Below are positions 11,897 through 64,000 of a DNA stretch of 64,000 nt, one piece after another. How positions within the stretch are numbered: the first letter of the stretch is position 1; every line of letters begins with the position of its first letter. The stretch is from Dromaius novaehollandiae. Its lineage: Eukaryota; Chordata; Aves; Casuariiformes; Dromaiidae. The stretch lies in NCBI RefSeq assembly GCF_036370855.1, contig NW_026991372.1, positions 310,001 to 374,000 on the forward strand. The letters are read 5' to 3'. A program made the position numbers and the translations under genes. The notes beneath the pieces are model-generated. The model was given only the letters and a program-made list of their open reading frames with translations, searched no databases and was not told where the DNA came from.

Positions 11897-12990
11897 GTGG
11901 CGCTGGGGTAGCACGTGTAGTGGAGGCTAAATGCAATAATACCTCGTTTTGATGTTGTTCTCTTATACGAAAGCACTTGGAGCAGATTAAGACATTTCTC
12001 GTCCTATTTTGTTTATTGAGTGGACCCTGATACTGGGGAGAAGCTGCCGTGAAGCAGACCTAGTAGTCAGCTTCCTTAGAGAAGGCGTCTTGTCCTGTAT
12101 TTGAGGGCTTCCGGTACGTTTTGACAGACAGTAGTGAGTGACGGGTTTCCTTTGGACCCCCCCGGGGAGCAGAAAGTTCTGCCGGGAAGGCAAAATGTTT
12201 CTTGCGGCTGGGTTGGAAGAAGCTGGCTGCTGATGCAAGGCAGTGACAATTCTGGGGAGTCGCGGGAAGTTCTGAAAAGACGGTCGTTCCCTTTACTAGA
12301 AGGCTATGCGCTTCGGTTCCTAATAGCTGTAGTAATGAAGCCAGGTAAGCGTTCGGGAGGAGCCCAAGCCACTTTTGCCTAGCGAGTATTTTGCAAGGGG
12401 GGCAGGAAAGCGCTGCGCCCTGCTCCTTGCTGCCCTCGCGTGTCTGAAAGGCGGCACTGCAGGCGGGAGGGGGGGCGCGCATGCGCATTGCGTTCCGGCG
12501 CGCTCACGGCTGCCCTCGCGTGTCGACAAGGCAGCACTGCAGCCGCCGGCGGCCACCGCTGCGTACGGAGACCGTTGCGGGCAGCCGGCGCACACGTGCG
12601 CGCTGCCGGTCGCCGCGTTGGCCGCTACTCTGCGCTCTCTCGGGGACGGGTAAGCGCAGGGGCCGCGCTCGTGCCCCCTGCCCGGTGCTCACGGACCGGG
12701 AGCGCTTTTCCCGAGAGGGCTTTTCCTTCTCGGTGCTTCCTGGGGGCGCGGGGACGGGCAGTGCCGTCTCGGAGCTGCTCCGCGGCGCTCTCTCCCCGGG
12801 GCAGCCCCAGCGCCTGCTCGCTGATGCCCGCCGCTCTCTCGGGCGCGGGCAGAGCAGCCTCGGGGCGCTCGCTGCTCGGCCTGAGCGCCGGGGTGGCGCG
12901 GCGGGCTGCGGTTGGCGCGCGGGAGCCGGCCGGCTGCAGCGCGGCGCTGCGACCACGCGAGGGTGGGGCCATTGCGGGTCTGGGCTGCCT

Positions 12991-13172
12991 CGCGCTGCGC
13001 TCCCCCCGCCCCTGGCGCTGCGCTCCCCCCGCCCCTCGCGCTGCGCTCCCCCCGCCCCTCGCGCTGCGCTCCCCCCGCCCCTCGCGCTGCGCTCCCCCCG
13101 CCCCTCGCGCTGCGCTCCCCCCGCCCCTCGCGCTGCGCTCCCCCCGCCCCTCGCGCTCCCCCCGCCCCTCTC
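12991..13172 (+). repeat. GC-box minisatellite, unit 1 (8 GC boxes)
   Basis: Seven repeats on a 23-bp period (CGCTGCGCTCCCCCCGCCCC then TCG), then one on the shorter 18-bp period that lacks CTGCG. Each copy contains CCCCGCCCC, the reverse of an Sp1/KLF GC box. Confidence 0.93.
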
Positions 13173-13183
13173 GCGCGGTCCTG

Positions 13184-13290
13184 GGCCGGCGCACGCGCGG
13201 TGCGGCGGCGCGAGCCCTGGGCGGCCGGCGCACGCGCGGTGCGGCGGCGCGAGCCCTGGGCGGCCGGCGCACGCGCGGTGCGGCGGCGGG
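13184..13290 (+). repeat. 39-bp minisatellite, unit 1 (3 copies)
   Basis: The core GGCGCACGCGCGG recurs at a 39-bp spacing (13190, 13229, 13268). GCGCACGCGC matches the NRF1 core. The period is a multiple of three, which is why long spurious reading frames cross it. Confidence 0.95.
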
Positions 13291-13600
13291 CAAGATGGCG
13301 GCGAGCAGGGCGGGTGTTTTCGCTGGACGGCGGCGGGCGAGGGCAGAGGCGGCCTGGAGTCGAGCATGTGGGGGCCGCGGTGAGGCGAGGCGAGGTGAGG
13401 CGAGCGTGCGCCTTCGGGTGGCCGCGGGTGTCGGGCTGTGTCCTGCCAGCCGGGGCCGTCGCTGCGTGGAGGCGGCGGGGCGGGGGGGGGGGGAGTCGGG
13501 CCGGGGGCCGCGCCGCGCGGCGCCGGGTCTGCGCGGCGCCGGGTCTGCCGGAGCGCGGCTCTGACTCTCCCTTTTGCGTGTGTCGCCTGTAGGGCCCCGG

Positions 13601-14832
13601 TTCCTCCCCAGCGCGGGCCGGGGCGTGCGCTCGCCCCTGCGGACGCAGCCTGGAGGAGTGTGTGGGGGGTGTCTGCGCGGGGGTCTGGATGTCTCTAGCA
13701 GCGGCACGGCAGCCTGATGCCTCCTCTCGTCTGGGACGCGGGGTCCTTGGGGAGTTCCCTGCTGCCTCCTCTGGCGTTCTCTGCGAGCTCATAGATCCCT
13801 CCACCTCCTCTCCTCCCCCCCCCCCCCCCGCCCCGCTCCCCTGTCTGGTGGGGTGGGAGACCGGTGGCTGCTCCCGCCGAGCTGAGAGCCACGTAGGGCA
13901 CCCCTGTGTGCTCACTACGCATCTGGGATGGCACCCCTGCCCTGAGGGCCCCGCAGAGTCCCACCCTTCCTGCAACCAGCCCCCCCAGAGCCATTAAACC
14001 ACCCACAAATCCTGCCCCAACACCCCCACAGGCCCCAAAATGCCTCCGAGCCCTGCCGCAATGTTGTCACTGACTCCAGACCTTCCCCTGCACTCTGTGC
14101 AAGGCCCCAAACATTCCTCAAACTGCTGCCAGACCCAGTGCCCGCAGCAGTGAGGCGTTCTAACAAAGATGGGGTGCGATCTGCGTCTCCGCCTCGACTC
14201 AGTCCCGCTTTAGAGAAACAGGAACTTAGAGCACTTCCTGGTGAAGAGTGTTGATGGGTGAATGTGCGGATGACAAAGAGACTTTTCTCTCTTTTCTTCT
14301 GAGCCGCCTCTCAGAAGCCTCTGTGTGTGCACGATGTGGCTGATCTGGGATAATCGTGCTGTGCGCAGTGCTTAAGGAGAACATTGCCCTAAAATGGAGG
14401 GCTAAGGAATAGCCTAAAAAACCTAAAAGGCTCGGGAAGAGCCAAAGAGAACACCGATGGGCTCTGGGAAGCCCCAGTGATGCTAGTGAAAACAGCGTGG
14501 CTTTTAGGCACCTCCTCAGAGCAGCAGCAATGTCTCGCTCCAGCCTATGGGGCAATGGGGACTCTTAATTACCGCCTTGAATTACCACAAGTGTTGCAAA
14601 AGCAGAAGGGACTAGGGAGCATGCAGAGCAGGTTATGGACTATATGTCAAGTTTAAACAAGCAACAAGCCCCTCTGCAAACAGAAACAGGTTTAGCCCTA
14701 AGTAATAGAGGAAGGTAGCTGTGAGTAACGTGAAGCGAAGCGGTGACGTCAGTCACCCCGAAAGCCTCGGAGAAGCGGACTGAAAATCTGGTACCCTCGC
14801 GGCCTCGGCAGTCTTTTTGGTTTGTTTGGCAG
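13601..14832 (+). other. Unit 1 segment between island 1 and the 933-bp array, with CRE
   Basis: It begins GC-rich with a poly-C tract (about 13,806-13,819) and becomes AT-richer. The perfect CRE TGACGTCA lies at 14744-14751. The wider GGTGAC-GTCA-GTCACC also forms an inverted repeat. A donor (GTGAGT, 14721) and a strong acceptor (14832) bracket the CRE in a potential 112-nt intron. Short open frames here (for example 14226-14555, minus) are recurrent but unsupported. The same segment recurs in units 2-6. Confidence 0.6.
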
Positions 14833-17800
14833 GGTAGCCCACCGAAGGGGGACATCTCGAAGAGAAGCAGCAAGACCTGGGGATCCGGTGGTTCATTTTG
14901 GTCGTCGCCTGTGAGGCCAGCATGCAAGAGTAAGAGGAAGCTAGGAGCAGTCTCAAAAAGGTAATAGGTCTGAAAGGGAGACAGGCAAATCGAGGGCTGT
15001 CGTTCCTCCACGTAGTTAAAGACCGAGAGAGTTGTCGGTTAAGCGCATGCATACGAGGGTTTGCGAACAGTAACAATAACACTGAAGCGGAATAAAAATA
15101 GGGTTTCGTGGAAGATGGCGTTAGGAAGGTATTAGGCGACGTGCCCGCCTGCCTAATAACCTAGCCCTAATTGCTGTGTGTAACGTTTCCAGACCGTTTA
15201 CCCTGCAACGTATGGTGCAAAGTGCCGTATTAAGACCTTTCCCTTAAGGAAAAGAAGAAGAAAAAAAGAAAAACAAGGGGGAAAAAGAAAACAGGGTAAA
15301 GAGAAAAAGATCATGCATAAACCTAAGCGTTTCACTGGAAGTAAAACGCGAGTTTATCGCTTCCTTACAGAGGTGGAACCAAGGACAGCAAATGCTGACG
15401 AGGAGAAGAGACGGACGAGCGTTTGCTTGCGGTTAATACCGAAGGGACGGGATGAAACAAGGAAGCCAGAATGCAGCGGCCCCTCGATATCACCAGGAAC
15501 TGCTACAGGAGGAGGCGTTCTGGCACGGGTAACTAGGGTAAGTATGGCTAATGACCGTTAGCAGTTATTTCGGCCTCCCCGAGGCAGCGCTGAGGACTGA
15601 GTAACCCGTTCCTGCCCTGTGGCTGCTGTTCCCTGTATCTGCCTTAGCTTTGCTTTGGCTGTTTCTCTTTTGTTTTGTTATCGTACACGCAGCTACGGAA
15701 AGGAATAGATGTCATACTTACTTTTTTAGATTAATTGCCACGGCTGAAGTTGAAGAGACCAAGAAACGTAAGCCGCGAAGGGGCACATCTTGAAGAGAGG
15801 GGGCTAGACCTAGCGATGCAGTTGTTCGTTTTGGTCGTCGCCTGTGAGGCCAGCATGCAAGAGTAAGAGGAAGCTAGGAGCAGTCTCAAAAAGGTAATAG
15901 GTTTGAAAGGGAGACAGGCAAATCGAGGGCTGTCGTTCCTCCACGTAGTTAAAGACCGAGAGAGTTGTCGGTTAAGCGCATGCATACGAGGGTTTGCGAA
16001 CAGTAACAATAACACTGAAGCGGAATAAAAATAAGGTTTCGTGGAAGATGGCGTTAGGAAGGTATTAGGCGACGTGCCCGCCTGCCTAATAACCTAGCCC
16101 TAATTGCTGTGTGTAACGTTTCCAGACCGTTTACCCTGCAACGTATGGTGCAAAGTGCCGTATTAAGACCTTTCCCTTAAGGAAAAGAAGAAGAAAAAAA
16201 GAAAAAAAAGGGGGAAAAAGAAAACAGGGTAAAGAGAAAAAGATCATGCATAAACCTAAGCGCTTCACTGGAAGTAAAACGCGAGTTTATCGCTTCCTTA
16301 CAGAGGTGGAACCAAGGACAGCAAATGCTGACGAGGAGAAGAGACGGACGAGCGTTTGCTTGCGGTTAATACCGAAGGGACGGGATGAAACAAGGAAGCC
16401 AGAATGCAGCGGCCCCTCGATATCACCAGGAACTGCTACAGGAGGAGGCGTTCTGGCACGGGTAACTAGGGTAAGTATGGCTAATGACCGTTAGCAGTTA
16501 TTTCGGCCTCCCCGAGGCAGCGCTGAGGACTGAGTAACCCGTTCCTGCCCTGTGGCTGCTGTTCCCTGTATCTGCCTTAGCTTTGCTTTGGCTGTTTCTC
16601 TTTTGTTTTGTTATCGTACACGCAGCTACGGAAAGGAATAGATGTCATACTTACTTTTTTAGATTAATTGCCACGGCTGAAGTTGAAGAGACCAAGAAAC
16701 GTAAGCCGCGAAGGGGCACATCTTGAAGAGAGGGGGCTAGACCTAGCGATGCAGTTGTTCGTTTTGGTCGTCGCCTGTGAGGCCAGCATGCAAGAGTAAG
16801 AGGAAGCTAGGAGCAGTCTCAAAAAGGTAATAGGTTTGAAAGGGAGACAGGCAAATCGAGGGCTGTCGTTCCTCCACGTAGTTAAAGACCGAGAGAGTTG
16901 TCGGTTAAGCGCATGCATACGAGGGTTTGCGAACAGTAACAATAACACTGAAGCGGAATAAAAATAAGGTTTCGTGGAAGATGGCGTTAGGAAGGTATTA
17001 GGCGACGTGCCCGCCTGCCTAATAACCTAGCCCTAATTGCTGTGTGTAACGTTTCCAGACCGTTTACCCTGCAACGTATGGTGCAAAGTGCCGTATTAAG
17101 ACCTTTCCCTTAAGGAAAAGAAGAAGAAAAAAAGAAAAACAAGGGGGAAAAAGAAAACAGGGTAAAGAGAAAAAGATCATGCATAAGCCTAAGCGTTTCA
17201 CTGGAAGTAAAACGCGAGTTTATCGCTTCCTTACAGAGATGGAACCAAGGACAGCAAATGCTGACGAGGAGAAGAGACGGACGAGCGTTTGCTTGCGGTT
17301 AATACCGAAGGGACGGGATGAAACAAGGAAGCCAGAATGCAGCGGCCCCTCGGTATCACCAGGAACTGCTACAGGAGGAGGCGTTCTGGCACGGGTAACT
17401 AGGGTAAGTATGGCTAATGACCGTTAGCAGTTATTTCGGCCTCCCCGAGGCAGCACTGAGGACTGAGTAACCCGTTCCTGCCCTGTGGCTGCTGTTGCCT
17501 GTATCTGCCTTAGCTTTGCTTTGGCTGTTTCTCTTTTGTTTTGTTATCGTACACGCAGCTACGGAAAGGAATAGATGTCATACTTACTTTTTTAGATTAA
17601 TTGCCACGGCTGAAGTTGAAGAGACCAAGAAACGTAAGCCGCGAAGGGGCACATCTTGAAGAGAGGGGGCTAGACCTAGCGATGCAGTTGTTCGTTTTGG
17701 TCGTCGCCTGTGAGGCCAGCATGCAAGAGTAAGAGGAAGCTAGGAGCAGTCTCAAAAAGGTAATAGGTCTGAAAGGGAGACAGGCAAATCGAGGGCTGTC

Positions 17801-18405
17801 GTTCCTCCACGTAGTTAAAGACCGAGAGAGTTGTCGGTTAAGCGCGTGCATACGAGGGTTTGCGAACAGTAACAATAACACTGAAGCGGAATAAAAATAA
17901 GGTTTCGTGGAAGATGGCGTTAGGAAGGTATTAGGCGACGTGCCCGCCTGCCTAATAACCTAGCCCTAATTGCTGTGTGTAACGTTTCCAGACCGTTTAC
18001 CCTGCAACGTATGGTGCAAAGTGCCGTATTAAGACCTTTCCCTTAAGGAAAAGAAGAAGAAAAAAAGAAAAACAAGGGGGAAAAAGAAAACAGGGTAAAG
18101 AGAAAAAGATCATGCATAAGCCTAAGCGTTTCACTGGAAGTAAAACGCGAGTTTATCGCTTCCTTACAGAGATGGAACCAAGGACAGCAAATGCTGACGA
18201 GGAGAAGAGACGGACGAGCGTTTGCTTGCGGTTAATACCGAAGGGACGGGATGAAACAAGGAAGCCAGAATGCAGCGGCCCCTCGGTATCACCAGGAACT
18301 GCTACAGGAGGAGGCGTTCTGGCACGGGTAACTAGGGTAAGTATGGCTAATGACCGTTAGCAGTTATTTCGGCCTCCCCGAGGCAGCGCTGAGGACTAAG
18401 TAACC
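14833..18405 (+). repeat. Nested 933-bp repeat array, unit 1 (about 3.8 copies)
   Basis: The period is exactly 933 bp (for example TTTTGGTCGTCG at 14896 and 15829). The first copy has a divergent first ~70 bp, and the last ends at GAGGACTAAGTAACC where internal copies read GAGGACTGAGTAACCCG. Each full copy holds exon-like block A (164 nt, CTTTTTTAG...AAAAAG|GTAATA), an AATAAA, a YY1-like AAGATGGCG, a hairpin, a ~65-nt purine tract and exon-like block B (167 nt, TTACAG...AGG|GTAAGTAT). Blocks: A 14833-14960, 15730-15893, 16663-16826, 17596-17759; B 15371-15537, 16304-16470, 17237-17403, 18170-18336. Confidence 0.95.
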
Positions 18406-19640
18406 TGAGGGGCTCTGGCCTGGGTTGGGGCAGAAGTGCAGGCAGGCGGGATCAGGCATTTTGCTCTCAGCTCTCCGAGCTGAATCCTAGCCCTGAAGGA
18501 AAAAGCACTGGGGGGAGGCTACTCGGACACCTGCCATGTCGAGGGCAGGGGCAGGAGCTGACCCTTCCCCGACGGACGTACGTACGGACAGACGCTGGTG
18601 CGGCGGTGACTCTTTGGATATCGTAGGTAAGGGGAGGCACGCTGGTGCCGAGCTCCAGGGCGGTTTGCCTGAACACGATGCCTGAGGCAGGAGGTTATGC
18701 ATTGTGTCCGGGGCTGGGAGCTGGTCCCCGAGTCCCATGTACTTGGGAGTGCCTGCACTTGCCAGGGAGCCCGGTGCTGTTCCCAGAGCTGCGGGGAATT
18801 TCCCTTGCGTTGCCTGGACCCTCGGGGCTCTTGGGGGTGTTTCCCCTCATCGCGAGGGCTGCCAGAGCCCCTCCAGGGCTGCGTGAGGTCCCCGAACCGC
18901 TCCCGGATTTGCTTTTGGCACTCCGCAGTGTCGCTCGTGTGCCTGGGGCAGCCTGCAGGCGCCATCCTGTCAGCCGCGTTGAGCCCTGCGGCGTGCCTGG
19001 TGACCCCTCTGGTGTGCGCCAAGGCCCTTCCTCTGTATTTTGGTCTGCCCCAGAGCCCTGCACTTGCCCTCTGATGCCCTCAGGACCCCTCAGTTCACAT
19101 TCTGGGTTGCCCCCGAGCCCTCTGCGTGCCTTTCGGTGCGCCCCGTGGCCCCGTGTGTGTTTTGCGGCACGCCGCAGAGGTCTCTGTTTAGCTTTTTCTC
19201 CTGTCCTGGAGTTTTCTGGGTGCTTCTGGGTGTGCCCCAGGGCCCTCCTTTTGGTGCCCCCCGAGTCACTCTGTTTGCTCTATCGTTGTTCTTTTTTTTT
19301 TTTTTTTTTTCTTGACTTGTGTTGCACCCAGAGCTCTCGATTTGTTCTTTTGTGCTCCGCATACTCCCCTTTCCGCACTCTACACCCCAGGCAGGGCTCT
19401 CCCTTCAGCTCTCAGCAAGCTGCTGTCAGGAGAGTGGGGGTGCCTCTGCTGCCCTGGCAGCCCCAGCTGTCCCTGAAGGGGCTGATGGCCAGGCCCCCTG
19501 CCCAGTTCCTGCAGGCCCACAGCTGCGGGCCCTGGGGCTGGGATGAATGCCAGGGGGAGCTGGGTGGCAGGACAGGCCCCAGGTGGGGCTGATGGCAAGG
19601 GCAGGCCCACATTTGGGGGCTGGGGCTGCAGTTGGGGGGA
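18406..19640 (+). other. Unit 1 poly-T segment between the 933-bp array and island 2
   Basis: Non-repetitive at first, with a candidate exon 18471-18626. It then contains degenerate ~30-bp tandem motifs of the type TGCCCC-AG-CCCT (about 18,990-19,280) and a T run at 19292-19310. A 315-codon open frame crosses it in unit 1, but it is cut short or altered by T-run length in other units. Equivalent segments: 27412-28646, 35625-36861, 47376-48610 and 56486-57724. Confidence 0.5.
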
Positions 19641-20540
19641 GCTGGCGCTGGGGCAGGAGCTGGGCAGCGGAGCTGCCACGGAGCACGGCCCTTCGGGACC
19701 AGCCCGGCGGCCGCCCCGCGGAGGAGGTGAGCGGGGCCGGGGGAGGCGCACTGCAGGCTGCGGGTCCCGCATGTGCCGGGGGTCCCGGCGGCTGGGAGCG
19801 TCCCGGGGCCACGGAGGCGGGGGGAGGAAGGGGGTGCGCCGGGGCTGTGGTGCGGTTTACTGCGCGGTCGGAGGAGCGCGGGGGGGGGGGGGGTCTCCTG
19901 TGTCAGCTCGGGAGCGTGTCGGGGAGCGGGGGGAGGAGGGTCGTGGAGGGGCGGGGGCAGTGTCGGAGCTGAGGCGGGGCCGGTCGCGGGGGTGTCGGGG
20001 GAGCCCCGGGCCGGTGGTGGGGCCGGCGGGGCCGCGCTCGGGGCTCTGCGGCCGTTTCCGGGGGGACAGGGGGGAAGGGGAAGGGGGGCGGGACGGAAAG
20101 GAACGGAATGTGCCGAGGGTCAAAGGTGCCCCAGCGCTGCGGGTGGGGGGCGGGAGTTGGGGTGCGGGACTGCGGGGAGCCGTAGCTTTCGGCGCGGCAT
20201 GCCGGGAGCAGTAGTCTTCCGGCACTGGGCTTCCGGTGGGGCATGTTCTGAGCGCGGCATGCTGGGAGCGGTAGTCTTCCGGCACTGGGCTTCCGGGCGG
20301 CCATGTTGCTTGGCATGGCATGCCGGGAGCAGTAGTCTTCCGGCACTGGGCTTCCGGGCCGCCCTTCTCGCGTGCACGGTATGCTGGGAGGTGTAGTCGT
20401 CTCAGGCGGGGCTACTGGGTGACCATGCTGCGCCTCTCGAGGTGGCCCCGCGGGGGGGGCGGCGGCGGCAGGTCCCTGCCAGCGGGGTTCCCAGCGGGTG
20501 GCCGCGTGGCAGGCCAGGAGCTGTAGTGCCCGCTGGGTCT
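19640..20540. promoter_or_regulatory. Unit 1 CpG island 2: ZNF143/THAP11, ETS and YY1-like sites
   Basis: A CpG-rich block with a donor GAG|GTGAGC at 19727, a G-quadruplex-prone purine stretch near 20,059-20,090 and a poly-G tract at about 19,880. Four ZNF143-type motifs lie at 20197-20398. CTTCCGG (ETS/GABPA) occurs twice between successive motifs. GCGGCCATGTTG at 20297-20308 resembles YY1 in the minus orientation. This combination is typical of housekeeping, often bidirectional, promoters. Confidence 0.6.
20197..20398 (-). promoter_or_regulatory. ZNF143/THAP11 (SBS) motif array, unit 1
   Basis: Four copies of GCATGCYGGGAGNNGTAGTC at 20197, 20257, 20318 and 20379 (the last begins GTATG). 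The reverse complement is GACTAC...CTCCCAGCATGC, the ZNF143/Staf-type element. Spacing is 60, 61 and 61 bp. A degenerate fifth copy (GGGGAGCCGTAGC) lies just upstream at about 20,175. Confidence 0.75.
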
Positions 20541-20826
20541 GTTCCTTACTGGACATGTGTCACTCACGCCTGAGTCCCCACAGGTCACGGGGGACAGTGG
20601 AATGCCCCTGTTTTTCCCCGGTACAGGGCAGGAAGTGTTTTCCATCTCCGATGGTGTTGCAAGACAACCTTGGAAGCTCAGAAAGAGTGTTCCTGCTGTT
20701 TAAACTAGGCAGATGAGGAGGAACCCCCCCCCCCCATTTCCTGGGAGGAAATAATTCTTTAATCAAGGCCATGCTAGAAGTGCTAAAGCCTTAAAGAAAC
20801 AGTAAATCAAAATGTTTTGTTTTCTA

Positions 20827-23150: not shown

Positions 23151-23161
23151 GCGCGGTCCTG

Positions 23162-23229
23162 GGCCGGCGCACGCGCGGTGCGGCGGCGCGAGCCCTGGGC
23201 GGCCGGCGCACGCGCGGTGCGGCGGCGGG
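23162..23229 (+). repeat. 39-bp minisatellite, unit 2 (2 copies)
   Basis: Cores at 23168 and 23207, directly followed by the YY1 motif. Confidence 0.95.
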
Positions 23230-51922: not shown

Positions 51923-51934
51923 CGCGCGGTCCTG

Positions 51935-53844: not shown

Positions 53845-56485
53845 GGTAGCCCACCGAAGGGGGACATCTCGAAGAGAAGCAGCAAGACCTGGGGATCCGG
53901 TGGTTCATTTTGGTCGTCGCCTGTGAGGCCAGCATGCAAGAGTAAGAGGAAGCTAGGAGCAGTCTCAAAAAGGTAATAGGTCTGAAAGGGAGACAGGCAA
54001 ATCGAGGGCTGTCGTTCCTCCACGTAGTTAAAGACCGAGAGAGTTGTCGGTTAAGCGCATGCATACGAGGGTTTGCGAACAGTAACAATAACACTGAAGC
54101 GGAATAAAAATAAGGTTTCGTGGAAGATGGCGTTAGGAAGGTACTAGGCGACGTGCCCGCCTGCCTAATAACCTAGCCCTAATTGCTGTGTGTAACGTTT
54201 CCAGACCGTTTACCCTGCAACGTATGGTGCAAAGTGCCGTATTAAGACCTTTCCCTTAAGGAAAAGAAGAAGAAAAAAAGAAAAAAAAGGGGGAAAAAGA
54301 AAACAGGGTAAAGAGAAAAAGATCATGCATAAACCTAAGCGTTTCACTGGAAGTAAAACGCGAGTTTATCGCTTCCTTACAGAGGTGGAACCAAGGACAG
54401 CAAATGCTGACGAGGAGAAGAGACGGACGAGCGTTTGCTTGCGGTTAATACCGAAGGGACGGGATGAAACAAGGAAGCCAGAATGCAGCGGCCCCTCGAT
54501 ATCACCAGGAACTGCTACAGGAGGAGGCGTTCTGGCACGGGTAACTAGGGTAAGTATGGCTAATGACCGTTAGCAGTTATTTCGGCCTCCCCGAGGCAGC
54601 GCTGAGGACTGAGTAACCCGTTCCTGCCCTGTGGCTGCTGTTCCCTGTATCTGCCTTAGCTTTGCTTTGGCTGTTTCTCTTTTGTTTTGTTATCGTACAC
54701 GCAGCTACGGAAAGGAATAGATGTCATACTTACTTTTTTAGATTAATTGCCACGGCTGAAGTTGAAGAGACCAAGAAACGTAAGCCGCGAAGGGGCACAT
54801 CTTGAAGAGAGGGGGCTAGACCTAGCGATCCAGTTGTTCGTTTTGGTCGTCGCCTGTGAGGCCAGCATGCAAGAGTAAGAGGAAGCTAGGAGCAGTCTCA
54901 AAAAGGTAATAGGTCTGAAAGGGAGACAGGCAAATCGAGGGCTGTCGTTCCTCCACGTAGTTAAAGACCGAGAGAGTTGTCGGTTAAGCGCATGCATACG
55001 AGGGTTTGCGAACAGTAACAATAACACTGAAGCGGAATAAAAATAGGGTTTCGTGGAAGATGGCGTTAGGAAGGTATTAGGCGACGTGCCCGCCTGCCTA
55101 ATAACCTAGCCCTAATTGCTGTGTGTAACGTTTCCAGACCGTTTACCCTGCAACGTATGGTGCAAAGTGCCGTATTAAGACCTTTCCCTTAAGGAAAAGA
55201 AGAAGAAAAAAAGAAAAACAAGGGGGAAAAAGAAAACAGGGTAAAGAGAAAAAGATCATGCATAAACCTAAGCGTTTCACTGGAAGTAAAACGCGAGTTT
55301 ATCGCTTCCTTACAGAGGTGGAACCAAGGACAGCAAATGCTGACGAGGAGAAGAGACGGACGAGCGTTTGCTTGCGGTTAATACCGAAGGGACGGGATGA
55401 AACAAGGAAGCCAGAATGCAGCGGCCCCTCGATATCACCAGGAACTGCTACAGGAGGAGGCGTTCTGGCACGGGTAACTAGGGTAAGTATGGCTAATGAC
55501 CGTTAGCAGTTATTTCGGCCTCCCCGAGGCAGCGCTGAGGACTGAGTAACCCGTTCCTGCCCTGTGGCTGCTGTTCCCTGTATCTGCCTTAGCTTTGCTT
55601 TGGCTGTTTCTCTTTTGTTTTGTTATCGTACACGCAGCTACGGAAAGGAATAGATGTCATACTTACTTTTTTAGATTAATTGCCACGGCTGAAGTTGAAG
55701 AGACCAAGAAACGTAAGCCGCGAAGGGGCACATCTTGAAGAGAGGGGGCTAGACCTAGCGATGCAGTTGTTCGTTTTGGTCGTCGCCTGTGAGGCCAGCA
55801 TGCAAGAGTAAGAGGAAGCTAGGAGCAGTCTCAAAAAGGTAATAGGTCTGAAAGGGAGACAGGCAAATCGAGGGCTGTCGTTCCTCCACGTAGTTAAAGA
55901 CCGAGAGAGTTGTCGGTTAAGCGCATGCATACGAGGGTTTGCGAACAGTAACAATAACACTGAAGCGGAATAAAAATAAGGTTTCGTGGAAGATGGCGTT
56001 AGGAAGGTATTAGGCGACGTGCCCGCCTGCCTAATAACCTAGCCCTAATTGCTGTGTGTAACGTTTCCAGATCGTTTACCCTGCAACGTATGGTGCAAAG
56101 TGCCGTATTAAGACCTTTCCCTTAAGGAAAAGAAGAAGAAAAAAAAGAAAAAAAAGGGGGGAAAAGAAAACAGGGTAAAGAGAAAAAGATCATGCATAAA
56201 CCTAAGCGTTTCACTGGAAGTAAAACGCAAGTTTATCGCTTCCTTACAGAGATGGAACCAAGGACAGCAAATGCTGACGAGGAGAAGAGACGGACGAGCG
56301 TTTGCTTGCGGTTAATACCGAAGGGACGGGATGAAACAAGGAAGCCAGAATGCAGCGGCCCCTCGATATCACCAGGAACTGCTACAGGAGGAGGCGTTCT
56401 GGCACGGGTAACTAGGGTAAGTATGGCTAATGACCGTTAGCAGTTATTTCGGCCTCCCCGAGGCAGCGCTGAGGACTAAGTAACC
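53845..56485 (+). repeat. Nested 933-bp repeat array, unit 5 (about 2.8 copies)
   Basis: Same layout. The first copy has GTACTAGG (about 54,141) where others read GTATTAGG, weakening the hairpin stem. Confidence 0.95.
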
Positions 56486-57723
56486 TGAGGGGCTCTGGCC
56501 TGGGTTGGGGCAGAAGTGCAGGCAGGCGGGATCAGGCATTTTCCTCTCAGCTCTCCGAGCTGAATCCTAGCCCTGAAGGAAAAAGCACTGGGGGGAGGCT
56601 ACTCGGACACCTGCCATGTCGAGGGCAGGGGCAGGAGCTGACCCTTCCCCGACGGACGGACGTACGGACAGACGCTGGTGCGGCGGTGACTCTTTGGATA
56701 TCGTAGGTAAGGGGAGGCACGCTGGTGCCGAGCTCCAGGGCGGTTTGCCTGAACACGATGCCTGAGGCAGGAGGTTATGCATTGTGTCCGGGGCTGGGAG
56801 CTGGTCCCCGAGTCCCATGTACTTGGGAGTGCCTGCACTTGCCAGGGAGCCCGGTGCTGTTCCCAGAGCTGCGGGGAATTTCCCTTGCGTTGCCTGGACC
56901 CTCGGGGCTCTTGGGGGTGTTTCCCCTCATCGCGAGGGCTGCCAGAGCCCCTCCAGGGCTGCGTGAGGTCCCCGAACCGCTCCCGGATTTGCTTTTGGCA
57001 CTCCGCAGTGTCGCTCGTGTGCCTGGGGCAGCCTGCAGGCGCCATCCTGTCAGCCGCGTTGAGCCCTGCGGCGTGCCTGGTGACCCCTCTGGTGTGCGCC
57101 AAGGCCCTTCCTCTGTATTTTGGTCTGCCCCAGAGCCCTGCACTTGCCCTCTGATGCCCTCAGGACCCCTCAGTTCACATTCTGGGTTGCCCCCGAGCCC
57201 TCTGCATGCCTTTCGGTGCGCCCCGTGGCCCCGTGTGTGTTTTGCGGCACGCCGCAGAGGTCTCTGTTTAGCTTTTTCTCCTGTCCTGGAGTTTTCTGGG
57301 TGCTTCTGGGTGTGCCCCAGGGCCCTCCTTTTGGTGCCCCCCGAGTCACTCTGTTTGCTCTATCGTTGTTCTTTTTTTTTTTTTTTTTTTTTTTCTTGAC
57401 TTGTGTTGCACCCAGAGCTCTCGATTTGTTCTCTTGTGCTCCGCATACTCCCCTTTCCGCACTCTACACCCCAGGCAGGGCTCTCCCTTCAGCTCTCAGC
57501 AAGCTGCTGTCAGGAGAGTGGGGGTGCCTCTGCTGCCCTGGCAGCCCCAGCTGTCCCTGAAGGGGCTGATGGCCAGGCCCCCTGCCCAGTTCCTGCAGGC
57601 CCACAGCTGCGGGCCCTGGGGCTGGGATGAATGCCAGGTGGAGCTGGGTGGCAGGACAGGCCCCAGGTGGGGCTGATGGCAAGGGCAGGCCCACATTTGG
57701 GGGCTGGGGCTGCAGTTGGGGGG

Positions 57724-58640
57724 AGCTGGCGCTGGGGCAGGAGCTGGGCAGCGGAGCTGCCACGGAGCACGGCCCTTCGGGCCCAGCCCGGCGGCCGCCC
57801 CGCGGAGGAGGTGAGCGGGGCCGGGGGAGGCGCGCTGCAGGCTGCGGGTCCCGCATGTGCCGGGGGTCCCGGCGGCTGGGAGCGTCCCGGGGCCACGGAG
57901 GCGGGGGGAGGAAGGGGGTGCGCCGGGGCTGTGGTGCGGTTTACTGCGCGGTCGGAGGAGCGCGGGGGGGGGGGGGGGGGGGGGGTCTCCTGTGTCAGCT
58001 CGGGAGCGTGTCGGGGAGCAGGGGGAGGAGGGTCGTGGAGGGGCGGGGGCAGTGTCGGAGCTGAGGCGGGGCCGGTGGCGGGGGTGTCGGGGGAGCCCCG
58101 GGCCGGTGGTGGGGCCGGCGGGGCCGCGCTCGGGGCTCTGCGGCCGTTTCCGGGGGGACAGGGGGGAAGGGGAAGGGGGGCGGGACGGAAAGGAACGGAA
58201 TGTGCCGAGGGTCAAAGGTGCCCCAGCGCTGCGGGTGGGGGGCGGGAGTTGGGGTGCGGGACTGCGGGGAGCCGTAGCTTTCGGCGCGGCATGCCGGGAG
58301 CAGTAGTCTTCCGGCACTGGGCTTCCGGTGGGGCCTGTTTGTTCTGAGCGCGGCATGCTGGGAGCGGTAGTCTTCCGGCACTGGGCTTCCGGGCGGCCAT
58401 GTTGCTTGGCATGGCATGCCGGGAGCAGTAGTCTTCCGGCACTGGGCTTCCGGGCCGCCCTTCTCGCGTGCACGGTATGCTGGGAGGTGTAGTCTTCTCA
58501 GGCGGGGCTACCGGGTGACCATGCTGCGCCTCTCGAGGTGGCCCCGCGGGGGGGCGGCGGCGGCAGGTCCCTGCCAGCGGGGTTCCCAGCAGGCGGCCGC
58601 GTGGCAGGCCAGGAGCTGTAGTGCCCGCTGGGTCTGTTCC
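57724..58640. promoter_or_regulatory. Unit 5 CpG island 2
   Basis: The ZNF143-type cluster is at 58289-58494 and has the same 4-bp insertion as unit 4. The poly-G tract near 57,964 is the longest in the window (over 20 G). Confidence 0.6.
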
Positions 58641-58928
58641 TTACTGGACATGTGTCACTCACGCCTGAGTCCCCACAGGTCACGGGGGACAGTGGAATGC
58701 CCCTGTTTTTCCCCGGTACAGGGCAGGAAGTGTTTTCCATCTCCAATGGTGTTGCCAGACAACCTTGGAAGCTCAGAAAGAGTGTTCCTGCTGTTTGAAC
58801 TAGGCAGATGAGGAGAACACCCCCCCCCCCCCCCCCCATTTCCTGGGAGGAAATAATTCTTTAATCAAGGCCATGCTAGAAGTGCTAAAGCCTTAAAGAA
58901 ATAGTAAATCAAAATGTTTTGTTTTCTA

Positions 58929-59332
58929 TGTAGACGTTGCCAATTTAGCAAAGGAATTCGAGGTATCCCCGAACTGAACTGTCCTCATTATAATACAAGA
59001 AAATCACGCCCATAGGTCAGAAAGACCTGTGCCCGGGTGAAGACCCCTCCCCTGAGCATGCGTAGTTTTAAAATGGTGTGTAAGCAATATTAGAATTGTA
59101 TGTAAATCACTAACCAACCGGTGTAAGAGGGAAAGTTGCAAACCTTGCAACTTGTATAAATGCTACTTGGAAAGCCGGGGGCGGGGGGGGGGGGGGGAAG
59201 TTGCGCTTGATTTGTGGGGAAAACACCGAGCAGCCAGGCTTGCACAACTCTGAAATAAATAAGCAAATGTCTCTCCTGAGCGTGTCATTATTGGCTTAGT
59301 GCACAGCGGGCAACGAATCCGCTTTTCGGACA
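58929..59332 (+). mobile_element. LTR-like element, unit 5
   Basis: Colinear copy with TATA and AATAAATAA intact. Confidence 0.5.
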
Positions 59333-60924
59333 GCAGCGTGACCAGGCAGGGTTGTCCCCGGGGGCTGGGGCTGTCCCTCTTGGAAATGGGGAGGGCGGGA
59401 AGAGTAGGAGGGGTGCTGCGGGCTCCTGGGGGTCGTAGCTTTGCTCAGGATTGGGGCCGGTTAGGCAGCTGCTGGGAGGAGCGGCGGTGCTGGGAGGGCA
59501 CGGTGCGGAGCTGTCCTGCTGTGCAGCGCAAGGGAAAGTCGACCAGCACCGTTGCTGTCCGAGGAGCCTGGAACAGCCCGAGAGACCCTGGAACAGCCAC
59601 CCCACGGACACCGTGTCACTGCCTCGCAAGGCCACCGCATGCAGGTACGTTTGACTACATCCGGCAGAAGAAATGTAAGCCGAAGGATCAGGGCAAATAG
59701 CTGCTTGTCTAGGTTTGTTACCTAGCGACGTACTGGCAAAGCTTTTTATGAACACCCGTACTCGATCGAGTGCGTATTCATTCTGTGAATATTAATTACT
59801 GCCAGACCGCGTACGTCACTGATGCTTTAAAGCAAGTCCGTGGCGCTGGGGTAGCACGTGTAGTGGAGGCTAAATGCAATAATACCTCGTTTTGATGTTG
59901 TTCTCTTATACGAAAGCACTTGGAGCAGATGAAGACATTTCTCGTCCTATTTTGTTTATTGAGTGGGCCCTGATACTGGGGAGAAGCTGCCGTGAAGCAG
60001 ACCTAGTAGTCAGCTTCCTTAGAGAAGGCGTCTTGTCCTGTATTTGAGGGCTTCCGGTACGTTTTGACAGACAGTAGTGAGTGACGGGTTTCCTTTGGAC
60101 CCCCCAGGGAGCAGAAAGTTCTGCCGGGAAGGCAAAATGTTTCTTGCGGCTGGGTTGGAAGAAGCTGGCTGCTGATGCAAGGCAGTGACAAGTCTGGGGA
60201 GTCGCGGGAAGTTTTGAAAAGACGGTCGTTCCCTTTACTAGAAGGCTATGCGCTTCGGTTCCTAATAGCTGTAGTAATGAAGCCAGGTAAGCGTTCGGGA
60301 GGAGCCCAAGCCACTTTTGCCTAGCGAGTATTTTGCAAGGGGGGCAGGAAAGCGCTGCGCCCTGCTCCTTGCTGCCCTCGCGTGTCTGAAAGGCAGCACT
60401 GCACGCGGGAGGGGGGCGCGCATGCGCATTGCGTTCCGGCGCGCTCACGGCTGCCCTCGCGTGTCGACAAGGCAGCACTGCAGCCGCCGGCGGCCACCGC
60501 TGCGTACGGAGACCGTTGCGGGCAGCCGGCGCACACGCGCGCGCTGCCGGTCGCCGCGTTGGCCGCTACTCTGCGCTCTCTCGGGGACGGGTAAGCGCAG
60601 GGGCCGCGCTCGTGCCCCCTGCCCGGTGCTCACGGACCGGGAGCGCTTTTCCCGAGAGGGCTTTTCCTTCTCGGTGCTTCCTGGGGGCGCGGGGACGGGC
60701 AGTGCCGTCTCGGAGCTGCTCCGCGGCGCTCTCTCCCCGGGGCAGCCCCAGCGCCTGCTCGCTGATGCCCGCCGCTCTCTCGGGCGCGGGCAGAGCAGCC
60801 TCGGGGCGCTCGCTGCTCGGCCTGAGCGCCGGGGTGGCGCGGCGGGCTGCGGTTGGCGCGCGGGAGCCGGCCGGCTGCAGCGCGGCGCTGCGACCACGCG
60901 AGGGTGGGGCCATTGCGGGTCTGG

Positions 60925-61102
60925 GCTCCCCCGCCCCTCGCGCTCCCCCCGCCCCTCGCGCTCCCCCCGCCCCTCGCGCTCCCCCCGCCCCTCGCGCTCC
61001 CCCCGCCCCTCGCGCTCCCCCCGCCCCTCGCGCTCCCCCCGCCCCTCGCGCTCCCCCCGCCCCTCGCGCTCCCCCCGCCCCTCGCGCTCCCCCCGCCCCT
61101 CT
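60925..61102 (+). repeat. GC-box minisatellite, unit 6 (10 GC boxes, pure 18-bp period)
   Basis: GC boxes run from 60933 to 61095 at an exact 18-bp period. Even the opening GCCTCGCGCTGC of the other units is gone. Confidence 0.93.
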
Positions 61103-61114
61103 CGCGCGGTCCTG

Positions 61115-61416
61115 GGCCGGCGCACGCGCGGTGCGGCGGCGCGAGCCCTGGGCGGCCGGCGCACGCGCGGTGCGGCGGCGCGAGCCCTGGGCGGCCGGCG
61201 CACGCGCGGTGCGGCGGCGCGAGCCCTGGGCGGCCGGCGCACGCGCGGTGCGGCGGCGCGAGCCCTGGGCGGCCGGCGCACGCGCGGTGCGGCGGCGCGA
61301 GCCCTGGGCGGCCGGCGCACGCGCGGTGCGGCGGCGCGAGCCCTGGGCGGCCGGCGCACGCGCGGTGCGGCGGCGCGAGCCCTGGGCGGCCGGCGCACGC
61401 GCGGTGCGGCGGCGGG
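61115..61416 (+). repeat. 39-bp minisatellite, unit 6 (8 copies)
   Basis: Cores from 61121 to 61394 at exactly 39 bp. Confidence 0.95.
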
Positions 61417-62952
61417 CAAGATGGCGGCGAGCAGGGCGGGTGTTTTGGCTGGACGGCGGCGGGCGAGGGCAGAGGCGGGCTGGAGTCGAGCATGTGGGGG
61501 CCGCGGTGAGGCGAGGTGAGGCGAGCGTGCGCCTTCGGGTGGCCGCGGGTGTCGGGCTGTGTCCTGCCAGCCGGGGCCGTCGCTGCGTGGAGGCGGCGGG
61601 GCGGGGGGGGAGTCGGGCCCGGCGCCGCGCCGCGCCGCGCCGGGTCTGCGCGGCGCCGGGTCTGCCGGAGCGCGGCTCTGACTCTCCCTTTTGCGTGTGT
61701 CGCCTGTGGGGCCCCGGTTCCTCCCCAGCGCGGGCCGGGGCGTGCGCTCGCCCCTGCGGACGCAGCCTGGAGGAGTGTGTGGGGGGTGTCTGCGCAGGGG
61801 TCTGGATGTCTCTAGCAGCGGCACGGCAGCCTGATGCCTCCTCTCGTCTGGGACGCGGGGTCCTTGGGGAGTTCCCTGCTGCCTCCTCTGGCATTCTCTG
61901 CGAGCTCATAGATCCCTCCACCTCCTCTCCCCCCCCCCCCCCCCGCCCCGCTCCGCTCCCCTGTCTGGTGGGGTGGGAGACCGGTGGCTGCTCCCGCCGA
62001 GCTGAGAGCCACGTAGGGCACCCCTGTGTGCTCACTACGCATCTGGGATGGCACCCCTGCCCTGAGGGCCCCGCAGAGTCCCACCCTTCCTGCAACCAGC
62101 CCCCCCAGAGCCATTAAACCACCCACAAATCCTGCCCCAACACCCCCACAGGCCCCAAAACGCCTCCGAGCCCTGCCGCAATGTTGTCACTGACTCCAGA
62201 CCTTCCCCTGCACTCTGTGCAAGGCCCCAAACATTCCTCAAACTGCTGCCAGACCCAGTGCTCGCAGCAGTGAGGCGTTCTAACAAAGATGGGGTGCGAT
62301 CTGCGTCTCCGCCTCGACTCAGTCCCGCTTTAGAGAAACAGGAACTTAGAGCACTTCCTGGTGAAGAGTGTTGATGGGTGAATGTGCGGATGACAAAGAG
62401 ACTTTTCTCTCTTTTCTTCTGAGCCGCCTCTCAGAAGCCTCTGTGTGTGCACGATGTGGCTGATCTGGGATAATCGTGCTGTGCGCAGTGCTTAAGGAGA
62501 ACATTGCCCTAAAATGGAGGGCTAAGGAATAGCCTAAAAAACCTAAAAGGCTCGGGAAGAGCCAAAGAGAACACCGATGGGCTCTGAGAAGCCCCAGTGA
62601 TGCTAGCGAAAACAGCGTGGCTTTTAGGCACCTCCTCAGAGCAGCAGCAATGTCTCGCTCCAGCCTATGGGGCAATGGGGACTCTTAATTACCGCCTTGA
62701 ATTACCACAAGTGTTGCAAAAGCAGAAGGGACTAGGGAGCATGCAGAGCAGGTTATGGACTATATGTCAAGTTTAAACAAGCAACAAGCCCCTCTGCAAA
62801 CAGAAACAGGTTTAGCCCTAAGTAATAGACGAAGGTAGCTGTGAGTAACGTGAAGCGAAGCGGTGACGTCAGTCACCCCGAAAGCCTCGGAGAAGCGGTC
62901 TGAAAATCTGGTACCCTCGCGGCCTCGGCAGTCTTTTTGGTTTGTTTGGCAG

Positions 62953-64000
62953 GGTAGCCCACCGAAGGGGGACATCTCGAAGAGAAGCAGCAAGACCTGG
63001 GGATCCGGTGGTTCATTTTGGTCGTCGCCTGTGAGGCCAGCATGCAAGAGTAAGAGGAAGCTAGGAGCAGTCTCAAAAAGGTAATAGGTCTGAAAGGGAG
63101 ACAGGCAAATCGAGGGCTGTCGTTCCTCCACGTAGTTAAAGACCGAGAGAGTTGTCGGTTAAGCGCATGCATACGAGGGTTTGCGAACAGTAACAATAAC
63201 ACTGAAGCGGAATAAAAATAAGGTTTCGTGGAAGATGGCGTTAGGAAGGTATTAGGCGACGTGCCCGCCTGCCTAATAACCTAGCCCTAATTGCTGTGTG
63301 TAACGTTTCCAGACCGTTTACCCTGCAACGTATGGTGCAAAGTGCCGTATTAAGACCTTTCCCTTAAGGAAAAGAAGAAGAAAAAAAGAAAAAAAAGGGG
63401 GAAAAAGAAAACAGGGTAAAGAGAAAAAGATCATGCATAAACCTAAGCGTTTCACTGGAAGTAAAACGCGAGTTTATCGCTTCCTTACAGAGGTGGAACC
63501 AAGGACAGCAAATGCTGACGAGGAGAAGAGACGGACGAGCGTTTGCTTGCGGTTAATACCGAAGGGACGGGATGAAACAAGGAAGCCAGAATGCAGCGGC
63601 CCCTCGATATCACCAGGAACTGCTACAGGAGGAGGCGTTCTGGCACGGGTAACTAGGGTAAGTATGGCTAATGACCGTTAGCAGTTATTTCGGCCTCCCC
63701 GAGGCAGCGCTGAGGACTGAGTAACCCGTTCCTGCCCTGTGGCTGCTGTTCCCTGTATCTGCCTTAGCTTTGCTTTGGCTGTTTCTCTTTTGTTTTGTTA
63801 TCGTACACGCAGCTACGGAAAGGAATAGATGTCATACTTACTTTTTTAGATTAATTGCCACGGCTGAAGTTGAAGAGACCAAGAAACGTAAGCCGCGAAG
63901 GGGCACATCTTGAAGAGAGGGGGCTAGACCTAGCGATGCAGTTGTTCGTTTTGGTCGTCGCCTGTGAGGCCAGCATGCAAGAGTAAGAGGAAGCTAGGAG
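62953..64000 (+). repeat. Nested 933-bp repeat array, unit 6 (start only)
   Basis: One copy and part of a second are visible before the window ends. Confidence 0.94.

Follow-up and report, generated by a model that had tools for sequence, protein, structure and literature searches.

A hierarchical subtelomeric macrosatellite with gene-like units on many chromosomes of one bird genome

Introduction

What is a tandem array in which every unit, several kilobases long, is laid out like a gene, and where in the genome does it belong? The 64,000-nucleotide stretch analyzed here, which we call the window, poses this question over most of its length. The original prediction, made from the letters alone, was of a macrosatellite amplified from a non-coding transcription unit, with two promoter-like CpG islands, splice signals, an LTR-like element and a nested tandem array in each unit, and with human D4Z4 and DXZ4 as parallels.

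Architecture of the Array

Self-BLAST of the window resolves positions 11,898 to 64,000 into five complete units and one cut unit, head-to-tail on the plus strand and ∼97–99% identical over long alignments (Table 1). There are 94 self-alignments of at least 500 bp, the longest being 11.8 kb at 98.3% identity, and all of the 80 of these that were listed are direct. Of the predicted scales of repetition, TRF returned the 18/23 and 39 bp periods and self-BLAST the unit scale and the 933-bp copies, which form a nested array in each unit. Being tandem, multikilobase, head-to-tail and highly similar, the units make up a macrosatellite, and a hierarchical one. The window holds 20 starts of 933-bp copies; the final copy in each complete unit is shortened to ∼764 bp, and the plus strand is purine-rich throughout this nested array. 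Genome-wide, the unit measures ∼7–13 kb, made up of ∼6.2 kb to which 933-bp copies, variable in number, are added. TRF also finds periods of 61 and 29 bp in the array, for which we claim no homology with the human 61-29-37 repeats. Further levels of repetition are a 30.6-kb four-unit pattern at the right end of contig C1 and a 44-kb block on C172/C181. The array runs past the window end (374 kb of contig C132), contiguously to 394 kb and again at 420–422 kb; no match was found at 430–431 kb.

The LTR-like element is supported by a relic unit at the right end of C1 that, compared with a window unit, is missing the insert; the TATAAA of the insert is not a motif in excess. In the literature searched, a part of what is in print, we recognized nothing as a 7–13-kb subtelomeric unit of birds whose inner repeat is 933 bp long. 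A 22-mer from the 933-bp repeat finds no locus in either viral_contigs or genome_contigs, which carries little weight because neither is a eukaryote collection.

Table 1. Features of the window, by position
Feature	Position	Strand	Remarks
MROH2B-like (maestro HEAT-like repeat) gene, 5' part	1..10400	-	Pfam; exon limits approximate
Unit 1	11898..21738	+	9,841 bp, four 933-bp copies
CpG island 1, unit 1	12400..13600	+	NRF1-like, YY1-type, 5' splice site
23-bp VNTR (18-bp form in units 5, 6)	12988..13157	+	TRF
39-bp VNTR	13184..13288	+	TRF and motif scan; one GCGCACGCGC per copy
Nested 933-bp tandem array, unit 1	14843..18405	+	GC 0.48, CpG o/e 0.94, purine 0.59
167-nt exon-like segment, first 933-bp copy	15371..15537	+	3' splice site TTCCTTACAG, 5' splice site GTAAGTAT
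CpG island 2, unit 1	19701..20560	.	60/61-bp repeat (TRF); ZNF143-like and ETS-like sites on - strand
LTR-like insert, ∼580 bp	20651..21235	+	TATAAA 21,053, AATAAA 21,152; edges approximate
Unit 2	21739..30746	+	9,008 bp, three 933-bp copies
Unit 3	30747..38953	+	8,207 bp, two 933-bp copies
Unit 4	38954..50716	+	11,763 bp, six 933-bp copies
Unit 5	50717..59840	+	9,124 bp, three 933-bp copies
Unit 6	59841..64000	+	4,160 bp up to window end, at least two 933-bp copies

Promoter, Splice and Coding Signals

Both CpG islands of the unit carry predicted promoter motifs, as had been proposed. In island 1 (GC 0.77–0.87 and CpG o/e 0.96–1.24 in 500-bp blocks), NRF1-like sites lie in unit 1 at 12,477 and at 13,189, 13,228 and 13,267, the last three one per 39-bp repeat; the pattern gives four strand-matches at three places against 0.09 expected, a result reached in 0/300 shuffles. 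They are followed by a YY1-type site, AAGATGGCGGC, at 13,292 (one match, 0/300 shuffles; exact in all six units) and by a 5' splice site at 13,395. Island 2 (GC 0.75, CpG o/e 0.84 in unit 1) is enriched in a ZNF143-like motif, three sites of which recur at no more than two mismatches in 5/5 complete units, and is possibly a divergent or antisense promoter. All of these promoter sites are predictions from motif matches, and the splice sites are predictions from scoring matrices.

The splice signals bear out the prediction. The 3' and 5' splice sites that bound the exon-like segment are both kept, with at most one mismatch, in 19/19 of the 933-bp copies not cut earlier by the window end, and such a pair arises in 5/500 shuffles. 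On the plus strand, 5' splice sites are in excess (5 vs 1.44 in shuffles, 2/200), whereas the minus strand has none (0 vs 0.76). The 3' splice sites show no plus-strand excess (1 vs 1.93) and are somewhat commoner on the minus strand (6 vs 3.0, 16/200 shuffles). At the threshold used, there is no strong plus-strand 3' splice site outside the 933-bp exon, and a complete gene model is therefore lacking. An AATAAA stands in each 933-bp copy of unit 1, and transcripts could end early. A structured RNA was considered and set aside: there is no Rfam match at the gathering score and no tRNA, and the fold of the exon is unremarkable (z −0.64).

Among 20 ORFs of the unit, none has a Pfam match at or above the cutoff; two have sub-threshold matches (E 0.037 and 0.31). 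Neither the VNTR period (23 bp) nor the exon length (167 nt) is a multiple of 3. Long ORFs are present in the GC-rich islands, and the longest vary in length from unit to unit. ORFs of 148, 130, 125 and 104 aa have a constant length in 5/5 units, as is to be expected of units that are 99% identical. In 19/19 of the 933-bp copies an 82-aa ORF stays open; its changes are 6 nonsynonymous and 3 synonymous, and those of an 84-aa antisense ORF are 38 and 13, near the neutral expectation in both (0.71 nonsynonymous). These results, with promoter and 5' splice signals on one strand, the telomere-facing one, fit the proposed amplified non-coding transcription unit, in which transcription is a prediction from the signals.

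Location, Polarity and Flanks

In the genome to which the window belongs, a 31-base promoter anchor occurs in 409 exact copies. The 100 of these that were listed, on contigs C1–C3, are all at most 0.51 Mb away from a contig end, point toward that end and occupy all six arms. Nine further contig ends carry the array, and at 15/15 ends seen it has the same strand toward the contig end. Of 1,594 candidate matches, 40 were scored, and 40/40 are terminal and end-pointing, on ten ends and the unplaced C109; the assignments of the left ends of C7, C10 and C16 consist of one partial match each. The array is subtelomeric on many chromosomes of this genome, and the number of anchors contradicts, at the level of the assembly rather than of reads, the idea that only one or two units exist. 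Anchor spacings below 13 kb span 7.0–12.8 kb. A set of 85 spacings clusters modulo 933 (R 0.33; 0/5,000 uniform simulations), but the fit improves at a period near 1,003 (R 0.42), so that the copy numbers that spacing implies elsewhere in the genome, some 1 to 7, are only rough.

In the window, the proximal flank is an MROH2B-like gene, whose joined exon translations match PF23221 (E 3.4e-25) and PF23210 (E 1.1e-19); a PDB search for MROH returned 0. Such a gene adjoins the array at 7/15 ends, and 1.3 kb of it recurs at 99–100% close to the ends of six other chromosome contigs and, tandemly repeated, on C172/C181. The gene itself belongs to a repeated subtelomeric block. An interstitial paralog lies at C1:180.33 Mb (90%). 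The MROH junction is common to C132 and the left end of C5 (98.7–99.6%); from ∼32 kb outward, 0/4 sampled pairs match within the ∼0.7 to 3 kb searched around the expected place. C132 and that end may be two haplotypes of one chromosome end, which would leave 14 independent ends.

End-ward of the array, a 162-bp satellite was found on seven sampled ends (R, right; L, left): C132R, C9L, C1R, C12R, C6R, C5L and C17L. On the first five, the sampled stretches give the order array, 162-bp satellite, TTAGGG telomere, the C12R satellite sample being one piece of ∼170 bp; on C5L and C17L the satellite is present with no telomere sequence. The contigs at C2R and C7L end in telomere, and there it was the terminal stretch that was sampled. 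Samples of C132 gave satellite between 460 and 742 kb and telomere at ∼771 kb. From the outermost unit matches to the contig end, the distance is ∼137 kb (C6R), 240 kb (C9L, C12R) or 260 kb (C1R). Kinship of module C1 with the satellite was not supported (score 46 vs a shuffle maximum of 50.5 in 60 shuffles).

Over 2 kb, copies differ by 0.41% within arms (30 pairs) and 0.87% between arms (123 pairs), in a comparison of 18 copies, some of them picked as best matches; the lower divergence within arms than between them (∼1%) indicates local homogenization together with exchange between ends. Transitions at CpG are ∼6 times as frequent per site as other transitions (27/895 vs 28/5,666), which indicates that germline methylation affects the array for at least some of the time. 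The array retains its CpGs, but two relics have fewer of them (16 vs 6 and 24 vs 3).

Discussion

We consider it probable, though far from certain, that the array is a subtelomeric macrosatellite whose units are non-coding RNA polymerase II transcription units, spread by polarity-keeping exchange and probably transcribed in the germline. The predicted NRF1/YY1 promoter in island 1 would drive RNA telomere-ward through the 933-bp copies, each of which could provide one 167-nt exon, and island 2 might serve as an antisense or second start. The array would have spread with one polarity because exchanges between chromosome ends necessarily preserve it, and unequal exchange would uphold homogeneity. 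Transcription may be mainly germline, as it is for the repeats at the ends of lampbrush chromosomes in birds, although the array is at times methylated there. The data do not call for a cellular function. We think it rather unlikely that, with all its details taken jointly, a larger picture holds, in which hundreds of NRF1/YY1 units on many ends form a pan-subtelomeric ncRNA family transcribed in unison. Telomere-ward transcription in growing oocytes would then give rise to terminal lampbrush loops or to giant RNP aggregates at the chromosome ends, the number of 933-bp exon modules (2 to 6 in the window) would set the valency of an RNA scaffold, and the family would be a convergent counterpart to human NRF1-controlled TERRA promoters and FIRRE-like repeated exons.

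The same features could belong to an inert subtelomeric satellite, its motifs being relics of an ancestral gene start carried by exchange and untranscribed, a reading that we doubt without dismissing it. Recombination alone accounts for polarity and homogenization, and the CpG transition excess, hence germline methylation, also suits inertness; against this stand the YY1-type site exact in every unit, the NRF1-type site in every 39-bp copy, the three recurrent ZNF143-like sites, the CpGs that persist in the array yet are fewer in relics, and the precedent of the Z-macrosatellite, which is reportedly transcribed. A multicopy protein-coding gene of the D4Z4/DUX4 or dot-chromosome amplicon type would explain the long island ORFs, the ORFs of constant length (though expected at this identity) and the open 82-aa frame, but is made very unlikely by the lack of Pfam matches among the 20 ORFs, the unequal longest ORFs and the near-neutral codon changes.

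That the assembly has falsely expanded the array, or multiplied it as haplotigs, is extremely improbable. Five ends (C1 left, C2 left, C3 right, C10 left, C16 left) do break within the array, C109, C172 and C181 appear unplaced, and C132 shares its MROH junction with its possible haplotype; however, the units are unlike in 933-bp copy number, VNTR length and substitutions, and the arms have different flanks, five of them traced to telomere by samples. An architectural boundary array, a CTCF platform like DXZ4 or FIRRE, would account for tandem CpG islands and a YY1-type site in all units, but the unit shows no excess of sites that score as CTCF-like with the matrix used (1 at ≥11 bits vs 1.7 in shuffles). 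The DXZ4-like platform was set aside on this ground, the predicted DXZ4 parallel is weak, and we give the boundary role scarcely any credence. Tandem NRF1-like sites in a telomere-pointing subtelomeric CpG island, as in the human 29-bp repeats (PMC6600276), would suit a TERRA-type promoter array whose transcripts enter the telomere, like the human 61-29-37 subtelomeric repeats. This too is highly improbable: the 162-bp satellite intervenes on the five sampled telomere-reaching ends, which led us to drop a strict TERRA promoter, and the outermost unit matches found are so far from the contig end that a direct transcript would need ∼137 to 260 kb.

Avian lampbrush chromosomes are described as forming giant terminal RNP aggregates (PMC7151628), and terminal repeats of chicken chromosomes are reportedly transcribed in oocytes (PMC4301066, PMC7397634). 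With promoter and splice signals in end-pointing, gene-like units, the array, read as a set of non-coding transcription units, is a concrete candidate for the bird chromosome-end transcription that has long been known, at base level and in one genome. It supplies a candidate promoter with a direction, predicted splice sites, an exon count that varies, and the order in which array, satellite and telomere follow one another. It would be an apparently independent instance of chromosome ends with NRF1-type promoters in tandem. Its single polarity at 15/15 ends also makes it a clean case of exchange among nonhomologous ends, useful for measuring subtelomeric exchange.

Comparison with Known Systems

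FIRRE has repeated exons. FIRRE and DXZ4 are presented as tandem-repeat loci with CTCF-YY1 sites, DXZ4 having an internal promoter element (PMC6985041). The array resembles them in its tandem repeats and YY1-type sites; they are X-linked, whereas it is subtelomeric on many chromosomes and has no CTCF excess. Chicken dot-chromosome pericentromeric amplicons and the HINT1W array are described as genes or lncRNAs amplified in tandem within the heterochromatin of birds (PMC9974502), and are pericentromeric or W-linked, in contrast to an array that lies near contig ends, on large contigs and small ones alike. The human 61-29-37 repeats are reported to combine a subtelomeric CpG island, tandem NRF1 sites and TERRA transcription toward the telomere (PMC6600276). 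Predicted NRF1-like sites in tandem, the subtelomeric CpG island and the telomere-ward direction recur here, but the promoter is not near the telomeric repeat, the 162-bp satellite lying between.

Human D4Z4 is GC-rich. Its near-identical units (4q35/10q26) are reported on several chromosomes, at subtelomeric among other sites and with a beta-satellite flank (PMC12963445), and measure 3.3 kb (PMC2639723). The parallel is stronger than first claimed, as the array too is subtelomeric and polar, with a short satellite distally on seven sampled ends; it differs in having ∼7–13-kb units without a recognizable ORF, where the D4Z4 unit holds the DUX4 ORF, and in its 15 ends and nested exon-like array. 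The repeat unit of the chicken Z-macrosatellite is probably ∼24 kb, against ∼7–13 kb here, and the likeness seen is one of location. That repeat (Hori et al. 1996, as cited) is described as subtelomeric, at the termini of GGA1, 2, 3 and Zq, on GGA1 next to another tandem repeat, PO41, and as transcribed in oocytes from terminal or subterminal lampbrush loops (PMC7397634, PMC4301066); the terminal chromomeres that carry it (GGA1, GGA2, GGA3p) are reported to be rich in 5mC and H3K9me3 (PMC7397634). The array likewise sits at the ends of several macrochromosomes, on all six arms of C1–C3, and on the best reading its mode of working is that of the chicken Z-macrosatellite and of D4Z4.

Organization of the Array and Its Unit

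Self-comparison of the window agrees with the original prediction of five complete units and one partial unit, nearly identical and head to tail, with repetition at 18/23/39 bp, 933 bp, and ∼9 kb. Long direct repeats run from ∼11,886 to the window end with 97–99% identity in alignments of at least 4 kb, and the six unit starts mark out five full units plus a sixth that the window end truncates. The units differ mainly in the copy number of the 933-bp repeat (4, 3, 2, 6, 3, and at least 2, in order) and in the 18/23-bp and 39-bp VNTRs. The array extends outside the window and is far above chance.

The promoter-like CpG islands, LTR-like element, and nested array predicted for each unit could all be placed on a map. 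Each unit starts with a CpG-rich stretch upstream of island 1, the island that contains the 23-bp and 39-bp VNTRs. After a spacer come the 933-bp array, a T-rich module, island 2, which holds a 60/61-bp repeat, and lastly an LTR-like insert of ∼580 bp. In the collapsed unit the NRF1 pattern gives four strand-matches at three places, one of them a palindrome, versus 0.09 expected and 0 of 300 shuffles. A YY1-type sequence, AAGATGGCGGC, occurs once per unit in the + orientation (the telomere-facing strand), ∼100 bp upstream of a 5′ splice site, and ZNF143-like and ETS-like sites lie on the − strand of island 2. All these sites are candidates, a motif match not being the same as binding.

Location and Polarity

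The window spans C132:310,001–374,000, and the assembly searched comprises 1.468 Gb in 271 contigs. A 1-kb probe (island 2 plus insert) matched at ∼99% at 40 of 40 scored places, from 1,594 candidates, on ten contig ends and the unplaced contig C109; the ends C10L, C16L, and C7L (L and R denoting left and right) were each added by one partial match only. A 31-base promoter anchor, which each window unit contains once, occurs 409 times as an exact copy genome-wide, against none for the reversed control. Among the 100 of these 409 that were listed, all on C1–C3 (C1 left 23, C1 right 12, C2 left 17, C2 right 27, C3 left 13, C3 right 8), every one points at the nearer contig end and lies no more than 508 kb from it. 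Polarity is single on 15 of 15 contig ends, a tally that excludes contigs C109, C172, C181, C188, and C249; these ends are not independent trials, because copying between ends preserves polarity. The contig of the window, C132, could represent the second haplotype of C5L.

The end-ward order was read from sampled stretches rather than from continuous sequence. On C132 right, the MROH2B-like gene is followed by the array, a satellite, and the telomere; between array and satellite, 430–431 kb gave no match. The order of array, satellite, and telomere recurs on C9 left, C1 right, C12 right (where the satellite is known from a ∼170-bp piece only), and C6 right. On C5 left and C17 left the satellite lies outside the array, but both contigs begin with N and showed no telomere. 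Telomeric repeats close C2 right and C7 left, where the sampling covered the ends themselves. Contigs break within the array at C1L, C2L, C3R, C10L, and C16L.

The satellite, a CpG-poor 162-bp sequence built of an 81-bp half-repeat, lies between macrosatellite and telomere in the sampled stretches, and its strand matches the array polarity wherever BLAST gave one. Several chromosome ends also share, at up to 98% identity, a near-telomere segment bearing a 1,419-bp repeat and a TGTCT-type minisatellite. The left ends of C11, C15, C18, and C23 are occupied by another repeat, short and GC-rich (TGACCTCACAAGCACAGCC... or its complement), perhaps a centromeric satellite of acrocentric chromosomes.

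Locations of the array, its features, and neighboring repeats (L-numbers are sampled stretches)
Feature	Location	Detail	Samples
Unit starts (n = 6)	window: 11,898; 21,739; 30,747; 38,954; 50,717; 59,841		
82-aa ORF	window: 16,246–16,494, and equivalent place in each 933-bp copy	overlaps exon-like segment	
Array, C132	321.9 kb to ∼422 kb		
Telomere, C132	from ∼770.8 kb		
Higher-order pattern	C1 right, 219.215–219.270 Mb	spacings (bp) 7,067/7,002/7,418/9,152, then 7,068/7,002/7,418/9,298	
Partial match to unit	C10L	602 bp	
Partial match to unit	C16L	598 bp, 92.6%	
Partial match to unit	C7L	379 bp, in LTR-like insert	
Relic	C1R, 219.300 Mb	318 bp aligned, 88% identity	L041
Relic	C12R, 27.350 Mb	690 bp aligned, 87% identity	L070
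162-bp satellite	C132:460–742 kb; C9:60–182 kb; C1:219.37–219.50 Mb; C5:150–301 kb; C17:100 kb; C6:49.90 Mb; C14 left end		L026–L033, L036–L038, L042–L044, L051, L073, L076–L078
1,419-bp-repeat segment			L010, L013, L014, L015, L017, L020
GC-rich end repeat			L049, L052, L054, L059

Larger Repeat Levels and the MROH2B-like Flank

Spacings below 13 kb between the listed anchors (n = 85) range from 7.0 to 12.8 kb, with a median of 8,380, and roughly fit 6.2 kb plus one to seven copies of 933 bp. They cluster modulo 933 (0 of 5,000 uniform simulations), yet a period of ∼1,003 fits better, so the 933-bp spacing rule is only approximate. On C1 right, a four-unit higher-order pattern of 30.64 kb is repeated.

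The MROH2B-like flank adjoins the arrays of C1L, C1R, C2R, C3L, C5L, and C6R at 99–100% and is thus present, C132 included, on 7 of 15 ends; with all 39 candidates scored, none was found on the remaining eight. The segment also stands in tandem with a period of ∼43.8 kb, in five copies on C172 and seven on C181. On C1L, C1R, and C2R, single exact anchors stand 44.0–44.4 kb proximal to the array, and the MROH segment lies between the two. A block of 44 kb thus seems to comprise the gene together with one unit, and the tandem block of C172 and C181 probably includes one macrosatellite unit. Interstitial MROH paralogs on C1 show 90, 77, and 68% identity.

Divergence and CpG Decay

A 2-kb comparison of 18 copies, some of which were picked as best matches to a single unit, gives differences of 0.41% within arms and 0.87% between arms. 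The four copies from C9L are almost identical to one another, and the distal units of C132 cluster together. In the tree, which has full support on just 4 of 13 inner branches, the proximal units of C132 join C1L, and C109 joins C12R. This divergence and grouping suggest local homogenization together with exchange between ends.

Distal to the arrays of C1R and C12R lie diverged relics, the former without the LTR-like insert. They hold 6 CpGs versus 16 in the array (C1R) and 3 versus 24 (C12R), which we infer to be losses in the relics rather than gains in the array. Within the array, CpG transitions are ∼6 times commoner per site than others (27/895 vs 28/5,666), and the array is therefore, at least sometimes, methylated in the germline. 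From these sequence comparisons, array copies would be either renewed faster than CpGs decay or often unmethylated.

Splice Signals and Coding Potential

Splice sites were scored with splice-site matrices on the collapsed unit against block shuffles (n = 200). The predicted splice signals held for 5′ sites, of which the + strand has five strong ones versus 1.44 in shuffles (2 of 200 reach five) and the − strand none versus 0.76 expected. On the + strand, strong 3′ sites show no excess (1 vs 1.9); the − strand has a mild one (6 vs 3.0; 16 of 200 shuffles). In the 933-bp repeat, one 3′/5′ pair encloses a 167-nt exon-like segment; such a pair arises in 5 of 500 shuffled repeats, and the − strand of the repeat has none. 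The + strand is rich in purines, with a fraction of 0.59 over the array and 0.65 in the exon-like segment. The search for a complete gene model of the unit yielded none, as it found no strong terminal 3′ site and every 933-bp copy of unit 1 contains an AATAAA.

Among 20 ORFs of the unit, none had a Pfam match reaching the curated cut-off; two weak sub-threshold matches gave E values of 0.037 and 0.31. The longest ORFs vary in length between units; several that are shorter, of 148, 130, 125, and 104 aa, have a constant length in 5 of 5 units, which is no surprise at such unit identity. In the 933-bp repeat, an 82-aa ORF (6 nonsynonymous, 3 synonymous changes) and an 84-aa antisense ORF (38 and 13) both stay open in 19 of 19 copies, with a neutral expectation of ∼0.71 nonsynonymous. 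The codon changes in the 82-aa ORF look neutral, and the ORF and codon results would be compatible with a short peptide from the unit.

Proposed Mechanism and Relation to Known Systems

We consider it probable that the array is a non-coding unit amplified at chromosome ends, spread with its polarity kept, homogenized, and transcribed toward the telomere. A non-coding transcription unit, possibly at first adjoining the MROH2B-like gene, would have been amplified at one or more ends, would have reached further ends through polarity-keeping exchanges, and would have been homogenized by unequal exchange. By its motifs and by the precedent of the chicken Z-macrosatellite, island 1 would drive transcription toward the telomere, and splicing of the transcript would perhaps include 167-nt exons in varying number. 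In the rival reading, which we regard as unlikely, the array is an inert subtelomeric satellite that is not transcribed, its promoter and splice motifs being leftovers. Our confidence in the transcribed unit is slightly lower, and that in the inert satellite slightly higher, because three of the 15 ends are known from single partial matches and the MROH gene adjoins only 7. The interest of the array is that it opens terminal transcription in birds to study at the sequence level, its function being putative. Avian lampbrush chromosomes bear giant terminal RNP aggregates, according to PMC7151628; a link to the array would be speculation.

PMC7397634 and PMC4301066 place the chicken Z-macrosatellite at the termini of GGA1, 2, 3 and Zq, describe its transcription on lampbrush chromosomes, and locate 5mC and H3K9me3 at the terminal regions of GGA1, GGA2, and GGA3p. 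By analogy the array may work alike and may be a relative of this macrosatellite. The predicted resemblance to D4Z4 stands for position and flanking satellite, although D4Z4 has a DUX4 ORF and a 3.3-kb unit, both absent from the array; that to DXZ4 is weak, a DXZ4-type CTCF array not being supported. Human TERRA promoters, as described in PMC6600276, share tandem NRF1 sites with the array, where they are candidates, whereas the array is set apart from the telomere.
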